In this document: positions 30,684-45,730 of the stretch, one piece after another
How the letters are laid out: the number at the start of each line of letters is the position of its first letter
Numbering within the stretch: the first letter of the stretch is position 1
NCBI GenBank assembly: GCA_902515405.1
Contig: CABXUS010000002.1
Location: forward strand, 33,886-97,885
DNA: 64,000 bases
From: an uncultured Bacteroidota bacterium
GTDB taxonomy: Bacteria > Bacteroidota > Bacteroidia > Flavobacteriales > Flavobacteriaceae
Reading direction: 5' to 3'
Program-made: the position numbers and the translations under genes
Notes under the pieces: model-generated
Told to the model about the DNA's origin: nothing
Seen by the model: only the letters and a program-made list of their open reading frames with translations
Databases searched by the model: none

Positions 30684-31691
30684 ATGAATAAACCAACAAT
30701 AATCGATATATCAAAAGCAACTGGGTTTTCAAAATCTACAATATCAAAGTCATTGAACGATAGTAAAGAAATTAGTAAAAAAACTAAAAATATTATTATT
30801 AAATATGCAAAAAAAATCAATTATAAACCAAATTTTTTTGCCAGTCATCTAAGAAAAAATATCGTAAAAAATGTTGCTATAATTATCCCCAATATTTTAA
30901 ATTATTATTTTGCCAAAGTTTTAAAAGGCGCACAACAAGAATTTTTTGATAAGGGATATGATCTTATGTGTTTTGTTAATGAGGAATCAATCTCAAGAGA
31001 AAAAAAAATACTTGAAAAGTTAAAAAACGGAAGTATTGCTGGATTAATGATATCACCTGCAAAAAATCCTTTTTCAAAAAAAATATCTAAACAACTTGTT
31101 GAAATTCAAGATTATCAAATTCCAATTGTGATGTTTGATAGAATTGTTGGTGACTTTAAATGCGATAAAGTTTTTATTGATGATTTTCAAAGCACCTATG
31201 ATATTGTGAAACATCTAGTTTCAAGAGGAAAAAGTAAAATAGCCTTAGTTTCACCAATTCATGAAACTCTTATTGGTAAAAAAAGATACGACGGTTACAA
31301 AAAGGCTCTAAAAATAGAAAAAATTGAGTATGATGAAAACTTATATATTCCTTTAAATAGTGGTAACACCATTCAAAGCGAAATTACAAAACTTGCAATC
31401 TCAAAAAAAATTGATTCAATTATTTGTATTGAACAACATATTACTGTTGCAATTCATAGTTTGATATTAAATTTAAAATTTAATATTCCTAAAGATATTG
31501 CGATAGTTGGTTTTACGGACGGACCATTATTTGAATTCATAAAGCCAAGTATAACCTCAATTAACCAACATGGTGAATATATCGGTAAATTATCAGCTAA
31601 AATTCTTATTGATAGAATAGAAAATAATAATAATTTAGATTTTGTTGAAGAAAAAGTTCCAACATCTTTAATTATAAGAGGTTCATCTTAA
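30684..31691 (+). CDS. LacI-family transcriptional regulator, probable xylan-locus repressor
   Basis: 335 residues. Residues 4-50 form the LacI helix-turn-helix and hinge (TIIDISKATGFSKSTISKSL, then INYKPNFFASHLR); about 60-335 form a periplasmic-binding-protein-like sensor domain (NVAIIIPNIL, VFIDDF, IALVSPIHE, IAIVGFTD). It converges on the xylanase gene with one base between the stops, so it faces the xylan/xylose operon it most probably controls. LacI-type operator candidates lie upstream of susC at the far end of that operon. The inducer is likely xylose or a xylo-oligosaccharide (inference from neighbours). A weak hairpin (31695-31700 with 31713-31718) before a T run could end its transcript. 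Confidence 0.88.
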   Translation: MNKPTIIDISKATGFSKSTISKSLNDSKEISKKTKNIIIKYAKKINYKPNFFASHLRKNIVKNVAIIIPNILNYYFAKVLKGAQQEFFDKGYDLMCFVNEESISREKKILEKLKNGSIAGLMISPAKNPFSKKISKQLVEIQDYQIPIVMFDRIVGDFKCDKVFIDDFQSTYDIVKHLVSRGKSKIALVSPIHETLIGKKRYDGYKKALKIEKIEYDENLYIPLNSGNTIQSEITKLAISKKIDSIICIEQHITVAIHSLILNLKFNIPKDIAIVGFTDGPLFEFIKPSITSINQHGEYIGKLSAKILIDRIENNNNLDFVEEKVPTSLIIRGSS

Positions 31692-31692
31692 A

Positions 31693-32790
31693 TTAATCAT
31701 ACAAAACTAGAGATGATTTTTTGTCAATTAAAGCTTTTTTTATTGCAAAAAGTGCTGGTTTAGGTCTTAACTGGTTATCAAATAAAAACCTGTTTTCATT
31801 TGTATGTTCACCAGGCCTATCAATCATTCCCCATGTATTAAAAGTAACAACACCATTGTTTCTTCTAGATATTAAAACCTTTATTACGTTTGAGTAAGCA
31901 GCTGCCTGTCTTTGGAGATCTTTATTTGATGGATTTTCTTTATTAATTCTGTAATCCATTTCCGTAACATGAAAATCTAACCCATTCCTATGAGACCAAT
32001 CAATAATGGAAGCAAAAAAATCAAGTTTTTCTTTGTTTAGTGCTAATGTTTCAAGGTCTTTAAGATGAGCTTGCCAACCTATTCCATTGACTCTAAAACC
32101 ATTTTCCTTTAAATATAATATAGTTTCAAGAACTCTTTTCCACATCAAAGGTTCCATTCCTCCATGTTGATTATAAACTAAACTAATATTTGGGGCATAT
32201 TTATTAGCAATTTCAAAGGCTTTAATTATGTATATTGGAATTCCATCATCATTTAATCCAATTTGAGTCCAAGGATTTTCCCATTTTTTAAATCCTGGTT
32301 TTTCTGCAAACCACTCCCCTTTCCTAGTGACTGTTTCATTTACAACATCCATCCATTTAACATGTGGATTATCATTGATTTTAATACATAAAGCAGTAAA
32401 AAATTCATTTAAATTTGTTAATAATTCTTGTTTTGTTCTATTATCATTTTTAGCCCACCAAGATGCCTGAGGGCTGACGGGTCCATGAATTCTCAATGTT
32501 ATATTATTATCATTAGCAAATTTTAAGTAATCGTCAAGCTTTGACCATCTCCATATACTAGGTTCAGGATGAATTTGAGCTTGCTTAGCACAATTTTCAG
32601 GCGTTGAGTAATTAAATTCATTTAGAAAAAGTTCCGAAATAGGAGTATTTAGTTGTTTGTGATTTAATGTTGCCCCAACAAAAAAAGAATCAATGCTATA
32701 ATTGTTTTCTTTTAAAATATTTTTAATTGAATATTTATCCTGGCTAAATGATAAAAAGAATCCAAATAATAATATTAAAATAGATTTCAT
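31693..32790 (-). CDS. GH10 endo-1,4-beta-xylanase, secreted
   Basis: 365 residues from the ATG at 32790; a TTG three codons upstream is less likely. A signal peptide covers about 1-17. The GH10 barrel shows the acid/base Glu152 in WMDVVNETVTR and the nucleophile Glu277 in DFHVTEMD, with QAHL and NTWGMIDRPGEH as further substrate-site segments. The usual HxLVWHxQ segment is replaced by RIHGPVSPQASWW, as in a divergent GH10 branch. Endo-cleavage of beta-1,4-xylan in the periplasm or at the surface. Last gene of the susC-led operon, ten bases after the symporter. Confidence 0.93.
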   Translation of the reverse strand: MKSILILLFGFFLSFSQDKYSIKNILKENNYSIDSFFVGATLNHKQLNTPISELFLNEFNYSTPENCAKQAQIHPEPSIWRWSKLDDYLKFANDNNITLRIHGPVSPQASWWAKNDNRTKQELLTNLNEFFTALCIKINDNPHVKWMDVVNETVTRKGEWFAEKPGFKKWENPWTQIGLNDDGIPIYIIKAFEIANKYAPNISLVYNQHGGMEPLMWKRVLETILYLKENGFRVNGIGWQAHLKDLETLALNKEKLDFFASIIDWSHRNGLDFHVTEMDYRINKENPSNKDLQRQAAAYSNVIKVLISRRNNGVVTFNTWGMIDRPGEHTNENRFLFDNQLRPKPALFAIKKALIDKKSSLVLYD

Positions 32791-32800
32791 AGATTCCAAT

Positions 32801-34480
32801 TTAAAAGAATATTGGTGAAAAGAATATTAAAATACCAATAACAATTAGAACTAAAACAACTGAAAGAACAATATCTATTGTTGAATATGAATTATCTGCA
32901 TTTAACCTATCTTGGGCTGATAAAGTACCATAAGATAAACCTCGAATTTTTTGATAATCTGGTTCAGAGGTTAAAATAGATACTGAAATACATAAAATAA
33001 CAGAAAATAAGAACATCCAAATTGCCATATAAGAAAAATTAATAGAAGCAAATTCAAATAAAAAACCACTATCTATTATTCCTTCATTTGTTGCAATCTC
33101 TGAACCTAATCTTAATACAAGCAAAAACAAACCACTGAAAAGAGTAACAATAGCAGCTTGAGAATTAACTCTTTTCCATATTATTCCAAGTAGAAAAACA
33201 GTTGTTACAGGTGGTGCTATATAAGCTTGAACATTTTGAAGGTACTGATACATTACTCCACCTCCAATTTTTTCCATAATTGGAATCCAAGCAATTCCTA
33301 ATATCACAATTACTACAGTTGCGATTTTACCCACATTAACTAAGTATTGTTCAGATTTTTCAGGACTGATTTGTTTGTAAATATCAATTGTAAAAATTGT
33401 TGAGCAGGAATTAAAAACAGATGCCAAAGAACTCATTAATGCAGCCATTAATCCACCTGCTACAAGTCCTTTTAATCCTACTGGCAATAATGTAGTTACC
33501 AACATAGGAAAGGCCCTGTCAGCTCTTTCTAAGCCAGTTTCAGGGTCTATAACACTAAAAATTTCAGGGTTTTGTATAGTTAATGCATATGCAATTATTC
33601 CGGGTACAAGAAAAATAAGAATTGGTAATAGTTTTAGATAAGCACCAAAAATAGCCCCTCTTCTACCAATAGTTATGTTATTTGCAGCTAAAGTTCTTTG
33701 AACAATATACTGATCTGTACACCAATACCATATACCTACAATAGTACCTCCAAAAAGTAGTCCTGCCCATGGAAATTCTGGATCATCCCAAGGTCTCCAC
33801 ATATTAAAATGTTCAGGGCTAACTTCAGTTACAGTCTTTGTTAACTGATTCCATCCTCCAACTTCTTGAAAACCTAAATAAGTAATAATAATAGATCCAG
33901 CAATTAAAACAACAGTTTGTAATGTCTCGGTATAAACAACAGCTTTTAATCCTCCAACTATTGTATAGATTCCAGTAAATACAACTATTCCAATTGCTCC
34001 AACCCAAAAATCTAAATTTAATAGCTCAGATACAACAATTCCCCCAGCATAAATAGTAACCGAAACTTTGGTTATAACATAGGCAAATAAAGAAAAAACT
34101 GAAAGAAACCACCTTGATCTACTATCAAACCTTTTTTCCAAAAATTCAGGCATTGTAAATGCTCCACTTCTTATATAAAAAGGCAAAAACAACCAACCCA
34201 GTAAAAGAACGATCCATGCATGTAACTCATAATGTGCCAATGGAGTTCCAGATGAAAAACCAGTACCAGCAAGACCAACAACATGTTCTGATCCTATGTT
34301 AGATGCAAAAATTGATGCTCCAATTACAAACCATCCAACATTTCTTCCTGCAAGAAAATAATCTTCTGTATTTTTATTTCTCTGTAGAGCTACCCAAATT
34401 GCCACTCCAATTAGAATAGCAAAATAAATTCCTAAAACTACCCAATCTAATCCCTCAAATATTGATTTTGTTGCTTCCAT
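32801..34480 (-). CDS. Sodium:solute symporter (SSS family), probable xylose/sugar importer
   Basis: 559 residues with about 14 membrane helices. TEDYFLAGRNVGWFVIGASI is the SGLT-type N-terminal signature and SNIGSEHVVGLAGTG the Na+/sugar-site region of sugar symporters. It sits between xylA and the GH10 gene, three bases from xylA, so transport of xylose or short xylosides across the inner membrane is the natural reading. The ligand is inferred from the neighbours. Confidence 0.9.
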   Translation of the reverse strand: MEATKSIFEGLDWVVLGIYFAILIGVAIWVALQRNKNTEDYFLAGRNVGWFVIGASIFASNIGSEHVVGLAGTGFSSGTPLAHYELHAWIVLLLGWLFLPFYIRSGAFTMPEFLEKRFDSRSRWFLSVFSLFAYVITKVSVTIYAGGIVVSELLNLDFWVGAIGIVVFTGIYTIVGGLKAVVYTETLQTVVLIAGSIIITYLGFQEVGGWNQLTKTVTEVSPEHFNMWRPWDDPEFPWAGLLFGGTIVGIWYWCTDQYIVQRTLAANNITIGRRGAIFGAYLKLLPILIFLVPGIIAYALTIQNPEIFSVIDPETGLERADRAFPMLVTTLLPVGLKGLVAGGLMAALMSSLASVFNSCSTIFTIDIYKQISPEKSEQYLVNVGKIATVVIVILGIAWIPIMEKIGGGVMYQYLQNVQAYIAPPVTTVFLLGIIWKRVNSQAAIVTLFSGLFLLVLRLGSEIATNEGIIDSGFLFEFASINFSYMAIWMFLFSVILCISVSILTSEPDYQKIRGLSYGTLSAQDRLNADNSYSTIDIVLSVVLVLIVIGILIFFSPIFF

Positions 34481-34483
34481 AAT

Positions 34484-35812
34484 TTATTTTATATAATTAA
34501 ATAATATGTTTTCTATTAGTTCTTGTTTACCACTTTTTAAATCTAATTTACCATTAAATTTTGCCAATTTATATAAGTCATCTAAACTTAATTTACCCTC
34601 TTCAAACTTCTTTCCATCTCCAGAGTCAAAACTTTTATATCTTTTATTGAGCATATCAACCAAAGGAGAATCAGTCAGTAACTTATCAGCAATAAGTAAA
34701 GCTCTTGCAAAAGTATCTGCACCTCCAATGTGAGCTAAGAACAAGTCTTCTAAATCAGTGGAATTTCTTCTAAGCTTAGCGTCAAAATTTACACCACCAC
34801 CTTTTAATCCACCGACTTTTAAAAAAACTAACATGGCCTCTGTTGTTTCCTGGATATTAATAGGAAATTGGTCAGTATCCCAGCCATTTTGGTAATCTCC
34901 TCTGTTTGCATCAATACTACCTAGCATACCGGAATTGGCAGCTACAGTTAGCTCATGTTGAAAAGTATGCTGAGCTAAAGTGGCGTGATTTACCTCAATA
35001 TTAATCTTAAAATCTTTATCTAACTCATATTCTTTAAGAAAACCAATTGATGTAGCAGTATCAAAATCATATTGATGTTTAGATGGTTCCATTGGCTTTG
35101 GTTCAATAAAAAATGTACCATTGAATCCTTTTGACCTAGCATAGTCTCTACACATTTTTAAAAATTGAGCCATATGATCAAGTTCTCTGCCCATATCAGT
35201 ATTTAGTAAAGACATGTAACCTTCTCTTCCACCCCAAAAAACATAATTCTCTCCCTCAAGTGCAATTGTAGCATCTAATGCTAATTTAATTTGACCTCCC
35301 GCTCTTGAAACTACATCAAAATCTGGGTTAGTTGCAGCCCCATTCATATAATGTGGATTTGAAAAACAATTTGCAGTTCCCCATAATAGTTTAATACCAG
35401 ACTCTTGTTTTTTCTTTTTAATATACTCCGTTATATAAAGTAACCTCTCTTCAGACTCTGAAAAGGTACTGGCCTCCTGAATCAAATCAAAATCATGAAA
35501 ACAAAAATAATCAAATCCCATTTTAGATATAAATTCAAAAGCTGCATCTGCTTTATCTTTTGCAGATTGAAAAGGGTCATTTGACTTATCCCATGGAAAA
35601 CTTTGTGTGCCAGATCCGAATGGATCTGCTCCTTGTCCACAGAAAGAATGCCAGTAAGCAACTGCAAACTTAAAGTGTTCTTTCATAGTTTTACCAGCGA
35701 CCAATTTATCTGGGTTGTAATATTTAAAAGCAAAAGGGTTTTTGGATTCTGTTCCTTCGTAATTAACTTTATTAATTCCTTTAAAAAACTCTTTATTTCC
35801 AATTGTTACCAT
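34484..35812 (-). CDS. xylA: Xylose isomerase
   Basis: 442 residues, normal for the longer class II isomerases. The catalytic His is in YFCFHDFDL, the xylose isomerase signature VFWGGREGY is present, and the metal ligands lie in FFIEPKP and IEVNHATLA. The EPKPMEPSKHQYDFD segment is typical of the family. It converts D-xylose to D-xylulose in the cytoplasm. Six bases from xylB and three from the symporter gene, so all three are clearly cotranscribed. Confidence 0.97.
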   Translation of the reverse strand: MVTIGNKEFFKGINKVNYEGTESKNPFAFKYYNPDKLVAGKTMKEHFKFAVAYWHSFCGQGADPFGSGTQSFPWDKSNDPFQSAKDKADAAFEFISKMGFDYFCFHDFDLIQEASTFSESEERLLYITEYIKKKKQESGIKLLWGTANCFSNPHYMNGAATNPDFDVVSRAGGQIKLALDATIALEGENYVFWGGREGYMSLLNTDMGRELDHMAQFLKMCRDYARSKGFNGTFFIEPKPMEPSKHQYDFDTATSIGFLKEYELDKDFKINIEVNHATLAQHTFQHELTVAANSGMLGSIDANRGDYQNGWDTDQFPINIQETTEAMLVFLKVGGLKGGGVNFDAKLRRNSTDLEDLFLAHIGGADTFARALLIADKLLTDSPLVDMLNKRYKSFDSGDGKKFEEGKLSLDDLYKLAKFNGKLDLKSGKQELIENILFNYIK

Positions 35813-35818
35813 AATATG

Positions 35819-37297
35819 TTAGTTTATAATTTTTAATAGATTTTCTTTCCACAAATTGTAGGCATCTTTGTAAGAGGATTTATTATTTTCAGGTTCAAAT
35901 GATTTGACGTAATCATTTTTAGTTGTTTTTTGTGAATATGACTTAAAATTTTTTGTATTGTAACCAGCTGCTCTTGCGGCACCGTAAGCCCCTGTTGTAT
36001 CATAAATTTCTATCTCTCTTTCTAAGACTGTTGATATTGTATTAGAAAAGATTTCAGAACGAAATAAATTATCATTTCCAGCTCTTACTAATTTGGGTGT
36101 AAAATTATCATTAATTAAGATTTCCATTCCATATATAAATGAAAATGCAATTCCCTCAAGTGATGCTCTATACAAATGTTCTTTTGAGTGTCTATTAAGA
36201 TTAAGGTTTTTTAAACATGTTCCAATATTTTTATTATTGAACATTCTTTCACTACCATTTCCAAAAGGATAAACAAGCAAACCATTAGAACCTACTTTGA
36301 CTTCACTTGCAAGATTATTCATTTCATCATATTCTCTTGCCGAAGTTAGGTTTTTTAACCACTTATATTGAATTCCTGCTCCGTTTATACATAAAAGTTT
36401 ACCAATCAACTTATTAGAATTAGAATAATTTACATGTGCAAAATTATTTAAGCGTAGCGATTCCTTAGATTTAATACTGTCTGTTAAAGCATATAATACA
36501 CCAGAAGTTCCTCCAGTTGCAGCTACTTCTCCAATATTCAATACATTTAAAGTCATAGCATTGTTTGGTTGATCTCCTGCTCTATATTTTATTGGTGTTC
36601 CTTTTTCAAGTCCAGTTTCTTTAGATCCAATGTAAGAAACGTAGCATTGATCACTAAAGTTTTCTACAATATCAGGTATTAAATCATTATCAATATTATA
36701 GTAATCTAGAAGCCAATTAGCAGTTTTATTTTCTTTGAAATCCCAGAACATACCCTCGGAAAGGCCAGTTATTGTTGATGAAATATCTCCTGAAAGCTTG
36801 TAGGAAATATAATCACCTGGTAATAAAAATTTATAAATTTTCTGGTATAAATCAGGTTCATTTCTTTTTACCCACGCAAGTTTAGATGCTGTAAAATTGC
36901 CAGGAGAATTTAATAAATGATTAGAACATTTATCTGATCCAATTTCATTAAAAGCTTTATTGCCAATTTCAACAGCTCTCCCATCACACCAAATTATAGA
37001 ATTTCTTAAAGATTTTCCATTTTTATCAATAACAACTAAGCCATGCATTTGATATGAAATACCCACACCAATAATATCCTTAGAACGAATTTGACTTTCA
37101 TTAATTATTCTTTTTGTTCCTGAACATATTAAATCCCACCAGTAATCAGGATCTTGTTCAGCCCATCCATTTGACTTTGAAATAATATCCATTTCATTTT
37201 TTGGCTCTTGAATCAAGTTAACTTTCTCACCAGATTCTGCATTAGTTAATGCAATCTTGAGTGAAGAACTACCTAAATCATAGCCTATGTAATACAT
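35819..37297 (-). CDS. xylB: Xylulokinase (FGGY family)
   Basis: 492 residues. The N-terminal [14 protein letters not shown] is the phosphate-1 loop; the [10 protein letters not shown] segment and [11 protein letters not shown] are typical of xylulokinases, and [12 protein letters not shown] forms the phosphate-2 loop. It makes D-xylulose 5-phosphate for the pentose phosphate pathway, completing the route from xylan. It lies five bases from the GH43 gene upstream and six from xylA downstream. Confidence 0.95.
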
Positions 37298-37302
37298 AAT
37301 AT

Positions 37303-38346
37303 TTATTCTATTATTGTATTTATAGTTTCTATAGAACCATCTTCTTTATGAAACATCTCAGTATATTTTACATTTCTCAAAAAATCTTTTCCTGAAATTT
37401 GAGTATCATGGTAAAAGAAATACCATTTATTATCAACTTCCAATGTTGAGTGATGGTTTGTCCACCCTTGGACAGGGTTATTCATAATTCCTTGGTAAAC
37501 AAAAGGTCCATAAGGGTTGTCACTTGTAGCATATACAATGAGATGAGTATTTCCGGTCGAATAACTTAAATAATATATACCATCTTTTTTGTGAACCCAT
37601 GCTGCTTCAAAAAATCGTCTTTCATGATCTTTTGTTAAAATTGGCATGCCTTCCTTATCAATAATTCTAACTGGTTTTGGTTCTTCAGCAAAACTTACCA
37701 TATCATCAGACATTAAAGCAATTCTTGGTGAAATTGCTGGACTATTAGGTATGCCATTATCTTGAGTTTCACAACCTGATGGTGTGTACTGATTGTTTTC
37801 ATCCCATCGTTGTAATTGACCTCCCCAAATACCTCCTATATACATGTAATATTTTCCGTCATCATCTTTATACACACTTGGATCCATGCTGTAGCTTCCC
37901 TCAATAGGATCTTTCTTAGATTTAAAAGGACCCTCAGGTTTGTTTGAGACTGCTACTCCAATTTTAAAAATATCTTCTTTATCTTTTGTAGGAAAATATA
38001 AGTAATATTTTCCATCTTTTTCAGCAGCATCTGGTGCCCAAAATTGTCTTTTAGCCCAGGGAACATCATTTAAGTCAAGTGCGACGTCGTGAATCGTCAC
38101 AGGTCCTCCAATAGAATCCATTGACAAAACCCTGTAATCTCTCATAGCATATTGGCTACCACAATCATCATATAATGGATCTTTTTCAATTATATCGTGA
38201 GAGGGATAAATGTAAATTTTTCCATTGAATAAATGCGCAGATGGATCAGCAGTGAAAATTTCCGAAACTAAGGGGTCATTTAAAAAATTTTTTTGGCAAT
38301 AAGAAAATGATGTAAAGATTAGTAATAGAATTATTATTTTTTTCAT
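37303..38346 (-). CDS. GH43 glycoside hydrolase, probable beta-xylosidase/arabinofuranosidase
   Basis: 347 residues with an N-terminal signal sequence. The five-bladed GH43 propeller shows the catalytic triad: Asp34 (base, FTADPSAH), Asp155 (pKa modulator, [10 protein letters not shown]) and Glu247 (acid, RRFFEAAW). It is a single-domain enzyme without a carbohydrate-binding module. It would release xylose or arabinose from xylo-oligosaccharides in the periplasm; linkage specificity cannot be read from sequence. Its ATG overlaps the sulfatase stop (ATGA). Confidence 0.92.
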
Positions 38347-39818
38347 TTTATAAATATTTTATTTTCTGAGAAATCTCTCATGTTTTTAAGTTTTCTTGAA
38401 TACTTTTCAACAATATTTTTATTTTCTGGATAATGTGAAATATTAATTGACTGATTTTTATCATTTTTCATATCAAATAACATTTTTTGCGTAACAATAA
38501 TTTTAGTTCCAGAAACATGTGTTTTCGCCCCATATTTATTCTTTCGTGTCTCTGGATAATAAAGAATCTCGTGATATGAGTATTCTTTATCTTGAACAAC
38601 CTCTCTAAACTGATATCTACTGTAAATTTGGTCTTTAAAATCTAGATTTGGGTTTTTTAATAATTGAACAAAACTTTTACCGTGAATGTAATCAGGAGGA
38701 TTTAATCCAGCAAGTTCACTAATAGTAGGGTATATATCTACATATTCAACCAATGCATCAGATTTCACATTTGATTTCATACCTGGTGAAGAAACAATTA
38801 ATGGGACATGAATTGCTTCTTGAAATGTATGATGTTTACACCAAAAACCATGTTCGCCTAGAAAAAAACCGTGATCACTCCAAAATACAATTGTGGTATT
38901 TTCTCTCAGATCAAGATCATCAAGAGCATTAATTAATTTACCAAGCATTGCGTCCATATAGCTTACACTTGCATAATATGACTTAATTAAATCCTTTTCC
39001 ATTTGAGCTGATACAGGGCCATTTTGGGGAATGTCTAAATAAGCGTTTCTTAACTCAGACCATTGATGATTAGCTCGTGATGGAGCGTTAATTGGAATAT
39101 CTCTTAGATTAGAATAGACAATATCATCATCACTGTACAGATCACCATATTTTTGTGGCTGGATAAAAGGTAAATGTGTGGAAATATAACCAACTGCCAG
39201 AAAAAAAGGATCACCTGACTTTTTAAAATTGCTGAGTGTTTTAATTGCATAATCAGTCAATTTGCCATCATTATAGGCATCGTCACTAACATTTGCATAT
39301 TCAAAAGCTGGACCTTTCAATTTACCATTTGATGGGTGACGTTCGTTTCTATCTTTTATAGATTTTATAGATTTAGGATTTTGATATCCAGTAAAATTTT
39401 GAAATGATTTGTGAATATCCCATTCATCAATATTATCTCTTGAATTATGATATATCTTTCCAAGAGATGCTGTTTTATATCCATTTTTTCTAAAAAGTTT
39501 TGCAAGTGTTACTGCTTTAGGTAAATCTTCATCAGCTCTTGAATAATATCTATAAAATCGAGAGTTATTTCCCCTTACTCCAGTTAAAATACTTGCTCTG
39601 CTAGCACCACAAACAGCAACATTTGTATAAGCTTGATTAAATTGAACACCTTCTCTCGCCAACTTATCAATATTTGGTGTTATCATCTGATCATAACCAT
39701 ATGAATTAATTAGAGGTCTTAAATCATCAACGCCAATAAATAATATGTTTTGCTTTTTCTCTTGTGAAAATGATGATAACCATAAAAAAAGAAACACATA
39801 GAATAGTCTAAAATTCAT
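38343..39818 (-). CDS. Type I sulfatase (iduronate-2-sulfatase-like, S1 family)
   Basis: 491 residues with a signal peptide (to about 19). The metal site begins with Asp31-Asp32 (GVDDLRPLI) and the nucleophile motif is VCGASRASILTG with Cys70, to be converted to formylglycine; the motif has Ala where the CxPSR consensus has Pro. WSDHGFFLGEHGFW is the C-terminal metal and sulfate region. Overall resemblance is to the iduronate-2-sulfatase-like subgroup. In this locus it probably removes sulfate esters from a xylan or xylose-containing polymer. A separate formylglycine-generating or anaerobic maturase is required and is not in the window. Confidence 0.92.
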   Translation of the reverse strand: MNFRLFYVFLFLWLSSFSQEKKQNILFIGVDDLRPLINSYGYDQMITPNIDKLAREGVQFNQAYTNVAVCGASRASILTGVRGNNSRFYRYYSRADEDLPKAVTLAKLFRKNGYKTASLGKIYHNSRDNIDEWDIHKSFQNFTGYQNPKSIKSIKDRNERHPSNGKLKGPAFEYANVSDDAYNDGKLTDYAIKTLSNFKKSGDPFFLAVGYISTHLPFIQPQKYGDLYSDDDIVYSNLRDIPINAPSRANHQWSELRNAYLDIPQNGPVSAQMEKDLIKSYYASVSYMDAMLGKLINALDDLDLRENTTIVFWSDHGFFLGEHGFWCKHHTFQEAIHVPLIVSSPGMKSNVKSDALVEYVDIYPTISELAGLNPPDYIHGKSFVQLLKNPNLDFKDQIYSRYQFREVVQDKEYSYHEILYYPETRKNKYGAKTHVSGTKIIVTQKMLFDMKNDKNQSINISHYPENKNIVEKYSRKLKNMRDFSENKIFIK

Positions 39819-40234: not shown

Positions 40235-41845
40235 TTAATTTATTAATTCGTTAGTATTAATTTCACTAAGTGGAATAGCAAGTTTCATTATTTCAGCTTG
40301 ATTAGTTGAAAAGGGAACTTCTCTATTTGCCGCATATTTTTTAGCACCAACGGCAACTTTTGTTGTACCAATAGCATTGTTGTGAGGTAAAATTGTATTG
40401 TCTAAAAAATATTGCATTCCTCTTCTTCTTACATGAAAAGAATCTTGCCCCTCACCGATTAATTCAATTTTATACTCATTCATAATAGCATCTCTGAAAG
40501 AAGCTTGTCCATTACTAAATTCAGCTCTAACTGGTACACCAGCTCTATCAAGAACTGGCTGTAAATATGTCATTTGCTGGCCATTACCTAATTCATTAGA
40601 TATCTCAGCTAACATTAATAAAAGTTCTGCATATCTCATATCAACAATATTTTGACTATTAAATTGATTTTTATGAGATCTATCTTTTTCTGTCCATTTA
40701 AATAAATATGGGTGAGAATTTCCAAAGTTACTTCTCCAAGTTGCTGAGGGATATGTTCTAACCCTTGCAGCTGGTTTGTCGTATCTAAAATAATCATATA
40801 AATAGGTTGCCGCATATCTTTTATCAGGCATGGTATTTAGATTATTTGGATTGTAGGTTAAGCCACCACCGTATGTTTTTAAGTGATTGTCATGTTGAAA
40901 TGCTGTAACTCTAAACCAGCCAAAATGTTGTCCAGCTTTATATTTCCACGGTGTAAAATTTCTTCCCATTTGAGAATTTGTTGCATCCTGTGAAATTTGT
41001 AATTCAAAGATAGACTCTGATGAATTTTCGCCTTCCACTGTGAATAAACTACCAAAATCAGATACAAGTGAATATTGTCCATAAGCTTTTATACCTTCAT
41101 CATATGCCATTGTCCAATAATCCATTGACCCACCAGAGGTTTGAAGACTTGCATTTGTGGCAATTGCCATATAAATTTTAGACAATAACATATTAGCGGC
41201 ATATTGTTTAGGATATCCGACACCGGCATTTCCATTCATTAAACTTGAAGCCATTTGAAGGTCAGATATAATTTGACTGTAAATATCTATTTCAGGAGAC
41301 AAAGCTTTATTAGTATTCCCTTGAGTTGGTAAGTCTGTCCATAAAGGAAGATCACCCCAAAGTGTAACTAATCTAAAATATGACCATGCTCTTACAAAAT
41401 ATGCGTGTCCAGCAACATCATTAAAAGCAACTTCGTCTTGACTTTGAGGGTCTGAAAACGTATTTACATGAGTAATAACTCCATTGGCTCTTGCAATAGT
41501 TTGGTATAATCCTTGCCACAAAAATTCAGCATCAAGGTGATACCCAGGTTTTAAAGAACACAATGTAGTCATATCTCTTGTATTGATTCTGTTTCCACCT
41601 TTGCCAGTATACATTAATCCTGAAAATAGATTTTCAATAAATAAGCGTCTTTCCTGATTATCATATGAAGTAATAGATTGATATATACCATCTCTAGCTG
41701 CCTCAGCACTTTGAACTTCTTGATATAAATTTTCAAGAAGAAAAGGAGGATTTTCTTCCAATTCACATGATATTGAAAACAACATTGGAATTATTAGAAA
41801 GTATTTTAAGTATTTCATTTTATATATTGATTTTAAGTATTTCAT
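40235..41845 (-). CDS. SusD/RagB-family glycan-binding lipoprotein
   Basis: 536 residues, outer-membrane surface lipoprotein that caps the SusC channel and binds glycan. The lipobox Cys lies in LFSISCELEE; the tetratricopeptide-like helical body includes NDVAGHAYFVRAWSYFRLV (typical SusD helix) and VDMRYAELLLMLAEI near the C-terminus. Two in-frame ATGs, at 41845 and 41818, come from a 27-base tandem duplication; the first lies three bases after the susC stop and suits re-initiation, while the second gives a more standard signal peptide. Target glycan inferred as xylan from the neighbours. Confidence 0.95.
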   Translation of the reverse strand: MKYLKSIYKMKYLKYFLIIPMLFSISCELEENPPFLLENLYQEVQSAEAARDGIYQSITSYDNQERRLFIENLFSGLMYTGKGGNRINTRDMTTLCSLKPGYHLDAEFLWQGLYQTIARANGVITHVNTFSDPQSQDEVAFNDVAGHAYFVRAWSYFRLVTLWGDLPLWTDLPTQGNTNKALSPEIDIYSQIISDLQMASSLMNGNAGVGYPKQYAANMLLSKIYMAIATNASLQTSGGSMDYWTMAYDEGIKAYGQYSLVSDFGSLFTVEGENSSESIFELQISQDATNSQMGRNFTPWKYKAGQHFGWFRVTAFQHDNHLKTYGGGLTYNPNNLNTMPDKRYAATYLYDYFRYDKPAARVRTYPSATWRSNFGNSHPYLFKWTEKDRSHKNQFNSQNIVDMRYAELLLMLAEISNELGNGQQMTYLQPVLDRAGVPVRAEFSNGQASFRDAIMNEYKIELIGEGQDSFHVRRRGMQYFLDNTILPHNNAIGTTKVAVGAKKYAANREVPFSTNQAEIMKLAIPLSEINTNELIN

Positions 41846-41848: not shown

Positions 41849-44800
41849 TTAAAAAGTTAAATTTACACCAACTAGAACAGATCTTGAGTTTGGCTTATTG
41901 TTCCAGTCAACACCTTGAATTAATCCGTCATACATAAATGTTGTTATTTCAGGATCATAACCTGAATAATTTGTCCATGTAAATAAGTTTGAACCTGTGA
42001 CATAAACATTAGCAGATTTTATAAAATTATCTGATTTCATTGGAATGTCATAATTCATTGTTATGTTTTTAAGTCTTAAATAACTACCATCTTCAACAAA
42101 TCTATCCATAGCTGCTGCAAATAAGTTTGCTGAATAGCCTAGTCTAGGATATGTTCCACTAGGATTTTCAGAGGACCATCTATCATTCCATGCCTCACTC
42201 AGAATATTTCTATAGGTACCCTCTGCAAATCCAAATCTATACATATTTCCATTTACTATATCATTCCCCTCAGTACCATTAAATAAAGCTCTAAGTGAGA
42301 AGTTTTTATAAGATATATTTAGATTAAAACCATAAATATAATCTGGGTTTGGATTACCAATTATAGTTCTATCATCTAAATCAACCACTCCATCACCATT
42401 TAAGTCTAATGCTTTGATATCGCCAGGTTGTGACATGGCCCCATTAATTATGTACATTTGGTCTCCGGATTGAAAAACACCATCTGTTTTCCATCCATAA
42501 AACAATGCTGTTTCTTGTCCTTCTAAGAAAATGTTTAAAGGAAACTTTATACTATTTCCTCTACTTGGAGCATTACCTAAATAAGACGGGATTTGTTGAA
42601 CACCATAATTACCATTACCATCATCCATTAAAACATTTCCTGGTGTAAGACCAAGATTTTCAATTTTAGTTTTATTAAATGCAATATTTCCACCAACTGA
42701 AAGATTGAAATCTCCTTTCTCATGTAGAATCACATCTAAACCTAGCTCAAGACCTCTGTTTTGCAATGTTCCTCTGTTAATTAACATATTTCTAAAACCA
42801 GATGAAGTAGGAATTGGAGTTTGTTGCAATAAATCTTTTGTGTCTTTTTCATATACATCAATAGTGCCAGAAATCTTTCCATTATTAAAACCAAAGTCAA
42901 TACCTACATTTAATTGTTCTGTAGTTTCCCATGTTAAATCTGGGTTTGGAATATTGCTTAAAATTATAGGAACAGTCGTTCCATTAGTTGGCGTTCCATA
43001 TAAACTAGATGAGGCACCATAATTAGGAAGAGTTCCATAAGGGCCAATACCATGGTTACCAATTTGTCCCCAACCTGCTCTTAGCTTGAGACTTGAAAAT
43101 AAATCTAAATTTTGAATAAACTTTTCACTTCCAGCTCTCCATGCAAGTGCAAATGAGGGAAAAAATCCATAACGATTATCCTCTGAAAACTTTGACACAC
43201 CATCCCTCCTAAAACTAGCAGTAAACACATACTTATTTTTAAAGGTATAATTTACTCTACCAAGAACCGAGAACAACTGCTGATCAGCAGCTCGTAAATT
43301 TAGTGGATTTGAAATCACTTGACCTAAAAATGGTTGATCTATTCCAAGCGAAGCTGTTACAAAATCCTGAACAGCATATGTGCTATTAGAAACATCTCTA
43401 ACATCATAAGTGATACCGAGTGTGGCATTTACCCTGTGATTTCTATTTATGTTACGATTATATCTTAAAAAATTATTTACTTGATAAGTAAGAGCATTTA
43501 ACTTCATTTGTTGATATAAACCATTAGCATTTGCTCCCTGCCAAGTTGTAAGTCCATAAAATCTTTTTCTGTCCTTATCTCTTAGGTTTCCTCCAAATCT
43601 AAATTCATATTGTAATCCAGGAATATTAAACTTGTATTTTAAAGCAAGAGAAGCAATAACCCTATTTTCATTTGATTCATCTGTAAAATCATCAATCCAA
43701 GATATGGGATTAGATAAGGCACTGCCATCAAAGAAATCGCTTAAATCCTCTAAACCATTTGCTCTAATTGGATTGTAGGTAGCTGTCTGTTGAACAAAAC
43801 TTTGATCTCCACCAATTAAGTCACCACCTTCTGCAAAATCTGATTCACTAAAAAAAGCAGAAAATCTAGCTTCAACTCTTAACTTATCATTGATATCATA
43901 GTTTAAGTTCAACCTTAAGTCAGTCGTCTTAAAACTAGCATTTTCAATTAATCCGTTCATGTCATTAAAGCCAGCTGATAAATAATAATCTCCAGCATCA
44001 CTAGCACCTGAAAATGTAACTCCTAAATTGGAACTGATTCCTTGCTTATAAATGTAATCTTGCCAGTCATAAATTAAATTTGGAGTATTATCAATCACAT
44101 CAGATGGGGTTCCATCTGGATTAGTTAAAAATGAATAAACATTATCTCCATCTATTCTATACCTTGGACTTTCATCAGCAGCAAGCCTAGCTGCATTAGA
44201 ATAATTTGCATATCCAACCCCATCTAGCATATCATATGTTTTTGTTATTTCTGTAACACTTGTAGTAAAATATGCGTTAAATTTTCCTTTTCCATCCTCC
44301 TTTGATCCAGATTTTGTTGTAATTAAGACAACACCATTTGCTCCTCTAGAACCATAAATTGCAGTTGCAGATGCATCTTTTAAAATTTCTATTCTTTCAA
44401 TATCACGTGGATTAATACCATTTAAACCACTTTGAGCATCCTGGCCAGTATTTCCCGTTCCAACAGCACTAACATCTTCTCCAGCAGATGATATGATAAC
44501 ACCATCAATAACATAAAGAGGCTCATTATTTCCTCTCAAGCTGTTTGTTCCTCTAATTCTAACACTAACACCTGAGTTAGGATTTGCAGCATTTTGAGTT
44601 ACTTGAACACCTGCTGCTCTTCCTTGCAATAGCTGATCAACAGTATTAGAAGCTCTGGAAACATCATCGGAAATCTTTACGGAACTAACAGAACCTGTTA
44701 AATCTCTTTTAAGTACTGTACCGTAGCCTACAACTACAACTTCATCAAGAGCTTCAGTGTCGGGTTGAAGATTTACTGATATAGAAATTTGGTTTGAAAC

Positions 44801-45052
44801 ATCAACTTCTTCATTCAAGTATCCGATATAGGAGATTATCAAAGTTTGTTCTGCATCAAGAGGAATTGAAATTGAAAAGTTACCATCAAAATCGGTGATA
44901 GCACCAATAGTTTCTGATCCTTTAAGCTGAACTGTTGCACCAGGTAGTGGTGAACCATTTTCATCATTTACTAAACCAGTAACCGTTTTAGATTGTGCTA
45001 AAACAAAGAATGGTAATAGTAAAAAAAGTATAATAATTTTTTTGATTTTCAT
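41849..45052 (-). CDS. SusC/RagA-family TonB-linked outer-membrane channel
   Basis: 1067 residues from the ATG at 45052; a TTG eight codons upstream is less likely. A signal peptide is followed by a carboxypeptidase-regulatory-like domain (about 22-95, VTGLVNDENGSPLPGA), a TonB-box-like segment EALDEVVVVGYG, a plug domain (about 110-220) with IERIEILKDASATAIYG, and a 22-strand barrel ending in VGVNLTF. It imports oligosaccharides in partnership with SusD, driven by TonB. First gene of the nine-gene minus-strand xylan operon; operator candidates lie 57-145 bases upstream of its ATG. Confidence 0.97.
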   Translation of the reverse strand: MKIKKIIILFLLLPFFVLAQSKTVTGLVNDENGSPLPGATVQLKGSETIGAITDFDGNFSISIPLDAEQTLIISYIGYLNEEVDVSNQISISVNLQPDTEALDEVVVVGYGTVLKRDLTGSVSSVKISDDVSRASNTVDQLLQGRAAGVQVTQNAANPNSGVSVRIRGTNSLRGNNEPLYVIDGVIISSAGEDVSAVGTGNTGQDAQSGLNGINPRDIERIEILKDASATAIYGSRGANGVVLITTKSGSKEDGKGKFNAYFTTSVTEITKTYDMLDGVGYANYSNAARLAADESPRYRIDGDNVYSFLTNPDGTPSDVIDNTPNLIYDWQDYIYKQGISSNLGVTFSGASDAGDYYLSAGFNDMNGLIENASFKTTDLRLNLNYDINDKLRVEARFSAFFSESDFAEGGDLIGGDQSFVQQTATYNPIRANGLEDLSDFFDGSALSNPISWIDDFTDESNENRVIASLALKYKFNIPGLQYEFRFGGNLRDKDRKRFYGLTTWQGANANGLYQQMKLNALTYQVNNFLRYNRNINRNHRVNATLGITYDVRDVSNSTYAVQDFVTASLGIDQPFLGQVISNPLNLRAADQQLFSVLGRVNYTFKNKYVFTASFRRDGVSKFSEDNRYGFFPSFALAWRAGSEKFIQNLDLFSSLKLRAGWGQIGNHGIGPYGTLPNYGASSSLYGTPTNGTTVPIILSNIPNPDLTWETTEQLNVGIDFGFNNGKISGTIDVYEKDTKDLLQQTPIPTSSGFRNMLINRGTLQNRGLELGLDVILHEKGDFNLSVGGNIAFNKTKIENLGLTPGNVLMDDGNGNYGVQQIPSYLGNAPSRGNSIKFPLNIFLEGQETALFYGWKTDGVFQSGDQMYIINGAMSQPGDIKALDLNGDGVVDLDDRTIIGNPNPDYIYGFNLNISYKNFSLRALFNGTEGNDIVNGNMYRFGFAEGTYRNILSEAWNDRWSSENPSGTYPRLGYSANLFAAAMDRFVEDGSYLRLKNITMNYDIPMKSDNFIKSANVYVTGSNLFTWTNYSGYDPEITTFMYDGLIQGVDWNNKPNSRSVLVGVNLTF

Positions 45053-45108
45053 TTTATTTTTTTTAGGGATCGCCAATTTATTAATAAGATTTTATTTTAA
45101 AAAATTAC

Positions 45109-45120
45109 GAAATCGATTTC
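45109..45120. promoter_or_regulatory. LacI-type operator candidate 1 (perfect palindrome)
   Basis: GAAATCGATTTC is a perfect 12-base palindrome with the central CG pair typical of LacI-family operators. It lies 57 bases upstream of the susC ATG, within promoter range, and is preceded by AAAATTAC, shared with candidate 2. Confidence 0.6.
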
Positions 45121-45185
45121 ATTTAACATAAACAATTTGTTATGACTAATTAACTTGGTAATATATTAAATATATTTAAAATTAC

Positions 45186-45197
45186 GAAACCATTTTC
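45186..45197. promoter_or_regulatory. LacI-type operator candidate 2 (imperfect copy)
   Basis: GAAACCATTTTC keeps the GAAA...TTTC half-sites and the AAAATTAC lead of candidate 1, 77 bases away. Two sites at this spacing would allow looping by a tetrameric or paired dimeric repressor. Confidence 0.42.
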
Positions 45198-45456: not shown

Positions 45457-45522
45457 GTGTATTTATAATAAAAGAAATTAATATTAAAAATGGTCATTTT
45501 TTTGATTATTATAAAATAATTT

Positions 45523-45534
45523 GTAACTAGTTAC
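45523..45534. promoter_or_regulatory. Perfect palindrome, candidate operator
   Basis: GTAACTAGTTAC is a perfect 12-base palindrome followed by GAA, so that TTACGAA, the same half-site string found at both susC operator candidates, appears here too. It may bind a regulator of the GH20-like arm or of a short transcript ending at the next hairpin. Confidence 0.4.
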
Positions 45535-45578
45535 GAATTAAACAAACAACTATGAAAAATATATTATCAATCCTAATG

Positions 45579-45604
45579 AAGCCTCTAATTTTTGGGGCTT
45601 TTTT
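45579..45604 (+). terminator. Intrinsic terminator-like hairpin upstream of the GH20-like gene
   Basis: AAGCCTC (45579-45585) pairs with GGGGCTT (45594-45600) with one G-T pair and an 8-base loop, then six Ts. No gene on this strand needs it, as the tRNA already has its own terminator; it could end a short untranslated RNA or act as an attenuator. Confidence 0.65.
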
Positions 45605-45662
45605 ATTTTAAACCATAGAATTATTTTTATAATTATATAACTGATAATTAACGAAATATGTT

Positions 45663-45690
45663 AACCTAACTTTAAAGTGAGTTTTTTTTT
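45663..45690 (+). terminator. Weak terminator-like hairpin resembling the tRNA-Arg terminator
   Basis: AACCTAACTTTAAAGTGAG followed by nine Ts. Base for base it looks like a degraded copy of the tRNA-Arg terminator (AACCTcACTTTcttGTGAG), but its own pairing is interrupted by a mismatch. Confidence 0.4.
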
Positions 45691-45730
45691 ATTTTAATAT
45701 TTACTAAATTCAGAGTATACATATTACGTT

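Follow-up and report, generated by a model that had tools for sequence, protein, structure and literature searches.

Paired palindromes upstream of a flavobacterial xylan operon are probable operators of the neighboring LacI-family regulator

We analyzed a 64,000-nucleotide stretch of DNA (the window) from a Flavobacteriaceae assembly of 1.12 Mb that is 72% complete. The window carries a xylan operon that runs on the minus strand from 45052 to 31693 in the order susC, susD, a small ORF, sulfatase, GH43, xylB, xylA, sodium symporter and GH10. A tRNA-Arg gene lies upstream of susC, and it accounts for the only Rfam match when RNA elements were sought in the susC leader. The features that concern us first are the following.

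41849..45052, minus strand: susC (SusC/RagA family, TonB-dependent), with which the operon begins
40235..41845, minus strand: susD
31693..39818, minus strand: remainder of the xylan/xylose operon (sulfatase, GH43, xylulokinase xylB, xylose isomerase xylA, sodium:solute symporter, GH10 xylanase)
30684..31691, plus strand: LacI-family regulator gene (P0001), convergent with the operon; hinge L56, no C-terminal tetramerization extension
45109..45120, minus strand: op2, putative susC-proximal operator; GAAATCGATTTC is a perfect palindrome centered on CG, and 68 bp separate its start from the susC ATG
45186..45197, minus strand: op1, putative susC-distal operator; the susC strand reads GAAAATGGTTTC, its start is 145 bp from the ATG, and op2 follows 77 bp downstream

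The same xylan operon is present on a contig labeled Gammaproteobacteria (SAT84; L094), where the LacI protein is 77% identical to the one described here. That label is probably a binning or naming error.

The first-pass annotation had described paired sites upstream of susC, 77 bases apart, and both sequences lie where it placed them. Read on the window strand, op1 is GAAACCATTTTC (45186-45197), and TTACGAA precedes op1 and op2 alike. The corresponding 20-mers, AAAATTACGAAATCGATTTC (45101-45120) and AAAATTACGAAACCATTTTC (45178-45197), have starts 77 bp apart. On the susC strand, the sites read GAAAATGGTTTCGTAA at -145 and GAAATCGATTTCGTAA at -68. GAAATCGATTTC is an even palindrome with a CG center upstream of a sugar operon, as is found for LacI-family operators, and the operator consensus of relatives is CGAAAACGTTTTCG. 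The CG center is not strict, since the center of op1 is TG, TA or CA.

Exact matches to GAAANNNNTTTCGTAA occur twice in the assembly (1.12 Mb, both strands), at op1 and op2 only, whereas about 0.05-0.1 per Mb per strand are expected when the window is simulated with a second-order Markov model. With a weight matrix built from other genomes only, the two best-scoring positions of the 64-kb window were these two sites, at 20.0 and 16.1 bits, and the next match scored 11.1 bits. GAAANNNNTTTCG is found 11 times in the assembly; outside long reading frames it occurs only at op1, op2 and one other position. Assembly-wide motif matches gave no clear further sites that would point to a wider regulon in this genome. 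We consider it barely conceivable that the sites are chance palindromes in AT-rich DNA. TTACGAA alone and GAAATCGATTTC with up to two mismatches are indeed near expectation in the window, but the exact longer pattern is found nowhere else in the assembly, and seven susC promoters, together with three promoters of another locus, preserve both sites at a fixed distance (see below).

TTACGAA by itself is weak evidence for operators. It had been proposed to occur three times, beyond chance, within about 680 bases. The three copies actually span 433 bases and are locally dense, as that proposal held, but the heptamer is not rare in the window as a whole (6 copies against 4.6 expected). The third copy has the following position.

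45531..45537, plus strand: third TTACGAA, outside the operator system; within a 24-bp palindrome (45517-45540) that belongs to an insert missing from close relatives

This copy had been noted beside another palindrome and grouped with the operators. The copy is real, but its membership of the operator set did not hold up: it has no GAAA....TTTC partner, it is part of a different palindrome, the 24-bp TAATTTGTAACTAGTTACGAATTA, and it falls within roughly 200 bp, flanked by tRNA-Arg and GH20, that are absent from G007 and G015. These three features led us to reject it as an operator. The 15-base core of TAATTTGTAACTAGTTACGAATTA has no second exact copy among 23 genus genomes. The insert itself (about 200 bp within 45460-45700, running from tRNA-Arg to GH20) thus contains a near-perfect 24-bp palindrome, and it also holds a short ORF (MKNILSILMKPLIFGAFLF) that overlaps a terminator-like hairpin.

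We compared 18 susC orthologs in the genus. The first-pass annotation had staked its claim on conservation of the palindrome upstream of such genes, and the comparison bore it out: the operator pair is present in 7 of the 18, with a spacing of 77 bp in G000, G008, G002 and G014 and of 75 bp in G007, G015 and G016. The remaining 11 have neither palindrome, and their operons are otherwise mostly alike. Presence of the sites follows presence of the regulator gene. Where lacI lies beside the operon and the susC promoter is assembled, the sites were found in every case (4/4; G000, G007, G002 and G016). Where the end of the operon is assembled and lacI is missing, they were found in none (0/8; G018, G010, G012, G020, G019, G003, G006 and G011), and the place of lacI is taken by a PALP gene, a phosphoesterase-like gene or others. 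Fisher's test gives 1/495 for this contrast when the genomes are treated as independent, though they are related; on the susC tree, lacI status requires at least two changes. In G008, G014 and G015 the sites are present but lacI was not found; the contigs stop before the lacI position. The sites are thus kept upstream of orthologous operons and co-occur with the regulator gene, as would be expected of LacI operators. Regulator and sites were either lost jointly, at least twice, or gained. Their joint absence in close relatives provides a natural control. In loci L066-L072 and L133-L135, the xylan operon is the same but both lacI and the operators are missing; the susC genes there are 77-88% identical.

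The pair is found at a second locus. Across the 23 genus genomes, we looked for GAAA....TTT motifs with a second copy at a distance of 62-92 bp, a pattern with many chance matches. Pairs made up of two full palindromes always had a spacing of 75-78 bp. These included pairs before another susC-like gene in three relatives only: G002 (77 bp; L076, contig C3), G008 (76 bp; L077, contig C5) and G014 (78 bp; L131, contig C14). In G002, this locus encodes GH43 and GH43_C2 domains, BD-FAE and SASA esterases, and sulfatases. It is another xylan-type locus.

A related motif accompanies more distant regulators. The best LacI homologs elsewhere in Flavobacteriaceae are 37-41% identical and often adjoin xylA/xylB. 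In 7 of 10 such loci (L079, L083, L084, L085, L088, L089 and L092), CGAAANNNNTTTCG lies roughly 170-240 bp before xylB (174-237 bp), and the genus-site matrix scored these seven sites as the top matches of their 20-kb loci. Two loci (L081 and L087) have weaker sites, and L090 has no CGAAANNNNTTTCG-type site before xylB. The xylB-upstream sites are single and unpaired. CGAAANNNNTTTCG provides a testable operator motif, together with a regulon, for the LacI-type xylose/xylan regulator found repeatedly in Flavobacteriaceae.

These comparisons bear on the possibility that another regulator (SusR-like, hybrid two-component or unknown) binds the pair and that the link to LacI is coincidental. The 77-bp distance does equal a SusR tandem spacing, and the assembly contains one weak Y_Y_Y-domain match. 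We nevertheless regard this explanation as very improbable. SusR sites are direct repeats, whereas these are LacI-type palindromes, whose presence tracks that of lacI and which reappear beside xylBA close to related LacI genes. SusR-type paired sites were rejected on this difference in symmetry, and the Y_Y_Y match falls below the family cut-off.

The only LacI-HTH gene in the assembly (72% complete) is the one at 30684-31691. It had been described as lying at the far end of the operon. The adjacency is correct, but the gene is convergent on the opposite strand and is not the last gene of the operon. Its product has an N-terminal LacI HTH (PF00356) and a C-terminal sugar-binding domain (PF13377/PF00532), and the nearest solved structures are CcpA, RbsR and PurR. 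Residues S16, T19, S21 and K22 of the HTH and L56 of the hinge are invariant across these regulators, L56 in 5 close and 11 family-wide sequences; we take L56 to be the equivalent of E. coli LacI L56. The protein has 335 residues and ends directly after the core domain, as do its homologs, so that the tetramerization helix of looping LacI is absent from all of them. Without this helix, a lac-type tetramer and tetramer looping are not expected. No autoregulation site was found upstream of lacI in four assemblies. The protein is 88% identical to a relative in MED-G61, a MAG labeled Cryomorphaceae, and a protein scan of named genomes for relatives returned three only.

Taken as a whole, the best explanation is that both palindromes are operators of the LacI-family regulator beside the xylan operon, as the first-pass annotation had suggested; judging from sequence, we give this reading a probability of about 0.88. 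The assignment to LacI is well supported because the sites are conserved and co-occur with lacI, the pair recurs at the second locus, and the motif recurs by xylBA near related regulators. From these comparisons we infer binding, the dimeric state, the direction of control, the effector and any cooperation between the sites. One LacI dimer would occupy each site, with its HTH on the GAAA/TTTC arms and hinge L56 in the central step. The two sites, about seven helical turns apart, would govern a single susC promoter, from which the uptake-xylanase-xylA-xylB operon is transcribed. The regulator would repress this promoter without sugar and be released by xylose or a short xylo-oligosaccharide. 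This putative dimeric LacI-type xylose regulator is probably a repressor, and the one point that favors repression is the habit of the LacI family.

The direction of control depends on which promoter box is used.

45073..45080, minus strand: candidate -7 promoter box TAAATTGG (tentative), which follows op2 by 28 nt

The -7 box has been placed at -12 to -5 (PMC9723704). TAnnTT lies 28 or 29 nt after op2 in all seven paired susC promoters and 37 or 38 nt after op2, about one turn further, in three second-locus promoters. Most of these promoters also have a weak TAnnTTTT-like box directly next to op2. If TAnnTT is the -7 box, the core promoter lies downstream of both operators, an arrangement that activators use as well; if the TAnnTTTT-like box is the -7 box, op2 is a blocking site. 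With two candidate -7 boxes, promoter placement does not decide between activation and repression. The same LacI and sites could thus activate susC from upstream of a weak promoter, in the manner of SusR and hybrid two-component regulators at the susC promoters of Bacteroidota. The TAnnTT boxes would center op2 near -46 or -56 and op1 near -123 or -132, and SusR tandem sites have a spacing of 67 or 77 bp (PMC3878776). We consider activation possible but unlikely, because the box abutting op2 would make it a blocking site and because most characterized LacI-family members bind DNA without ligand (PMC4052901).

Control by a LacI-family regulator is of an ordinary kind; the fixed spacing is its unusual and mildly surprising feature. 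A distance of 75-78 bp raises the question of how two sites so far apart are used by a LacI that is predicted not to form tetramers. Such a protein might need both operators at this distance to act on Bacteroidota susC promoters, either activating them or repressing them with another protein as a bridge, and the SusR-like spacing would have been reached by convergence; we regard this idea as rather doubtful.

We compared the predicted system to known regulators. It resembles the LacI-family regulons surveyed by Ravcheev et al. (2014, PMC4052901) in its even palindrome with a CG-type center, its local sugar operon and adjacent regulator gene, and sites that mostly lie 30-140 bp before the start codon. 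The tandem sites in that survey have spacing peaks at 13, 22 and 32 bp, whereas every pair here is spaced at 75-78 bp. The LacI-family HTH, the hinge leucine, and the presence of more than one palindromic operator per promoter are shared with E. coli lac. In contrast to lac, the regulator here lacks the C-terminal tetramerization extension, the operator core is CGAAANNNNTTTCG, and the regulator gene, instead of lying upstream of the operon, converges on it. We found no described LacI-type polysaccharide regulator in Bacteroidota with the literature search terms used. Bacteroides SusR also uses paired sites, 67 or 77 bp apart, before susC-type operons, but it comes from a different protein family and recognizes direct repeats (PMC3878776). 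Bacteroides XylR (BT0791) is likewise predicted to control xylose utilization in Bacteroidota, but it is a member of the NrtR family (PMC3878776). Thus, the predicted control of xylose use in Bacteroides employs a different regulator family from the LacI-type regulator proposed here.
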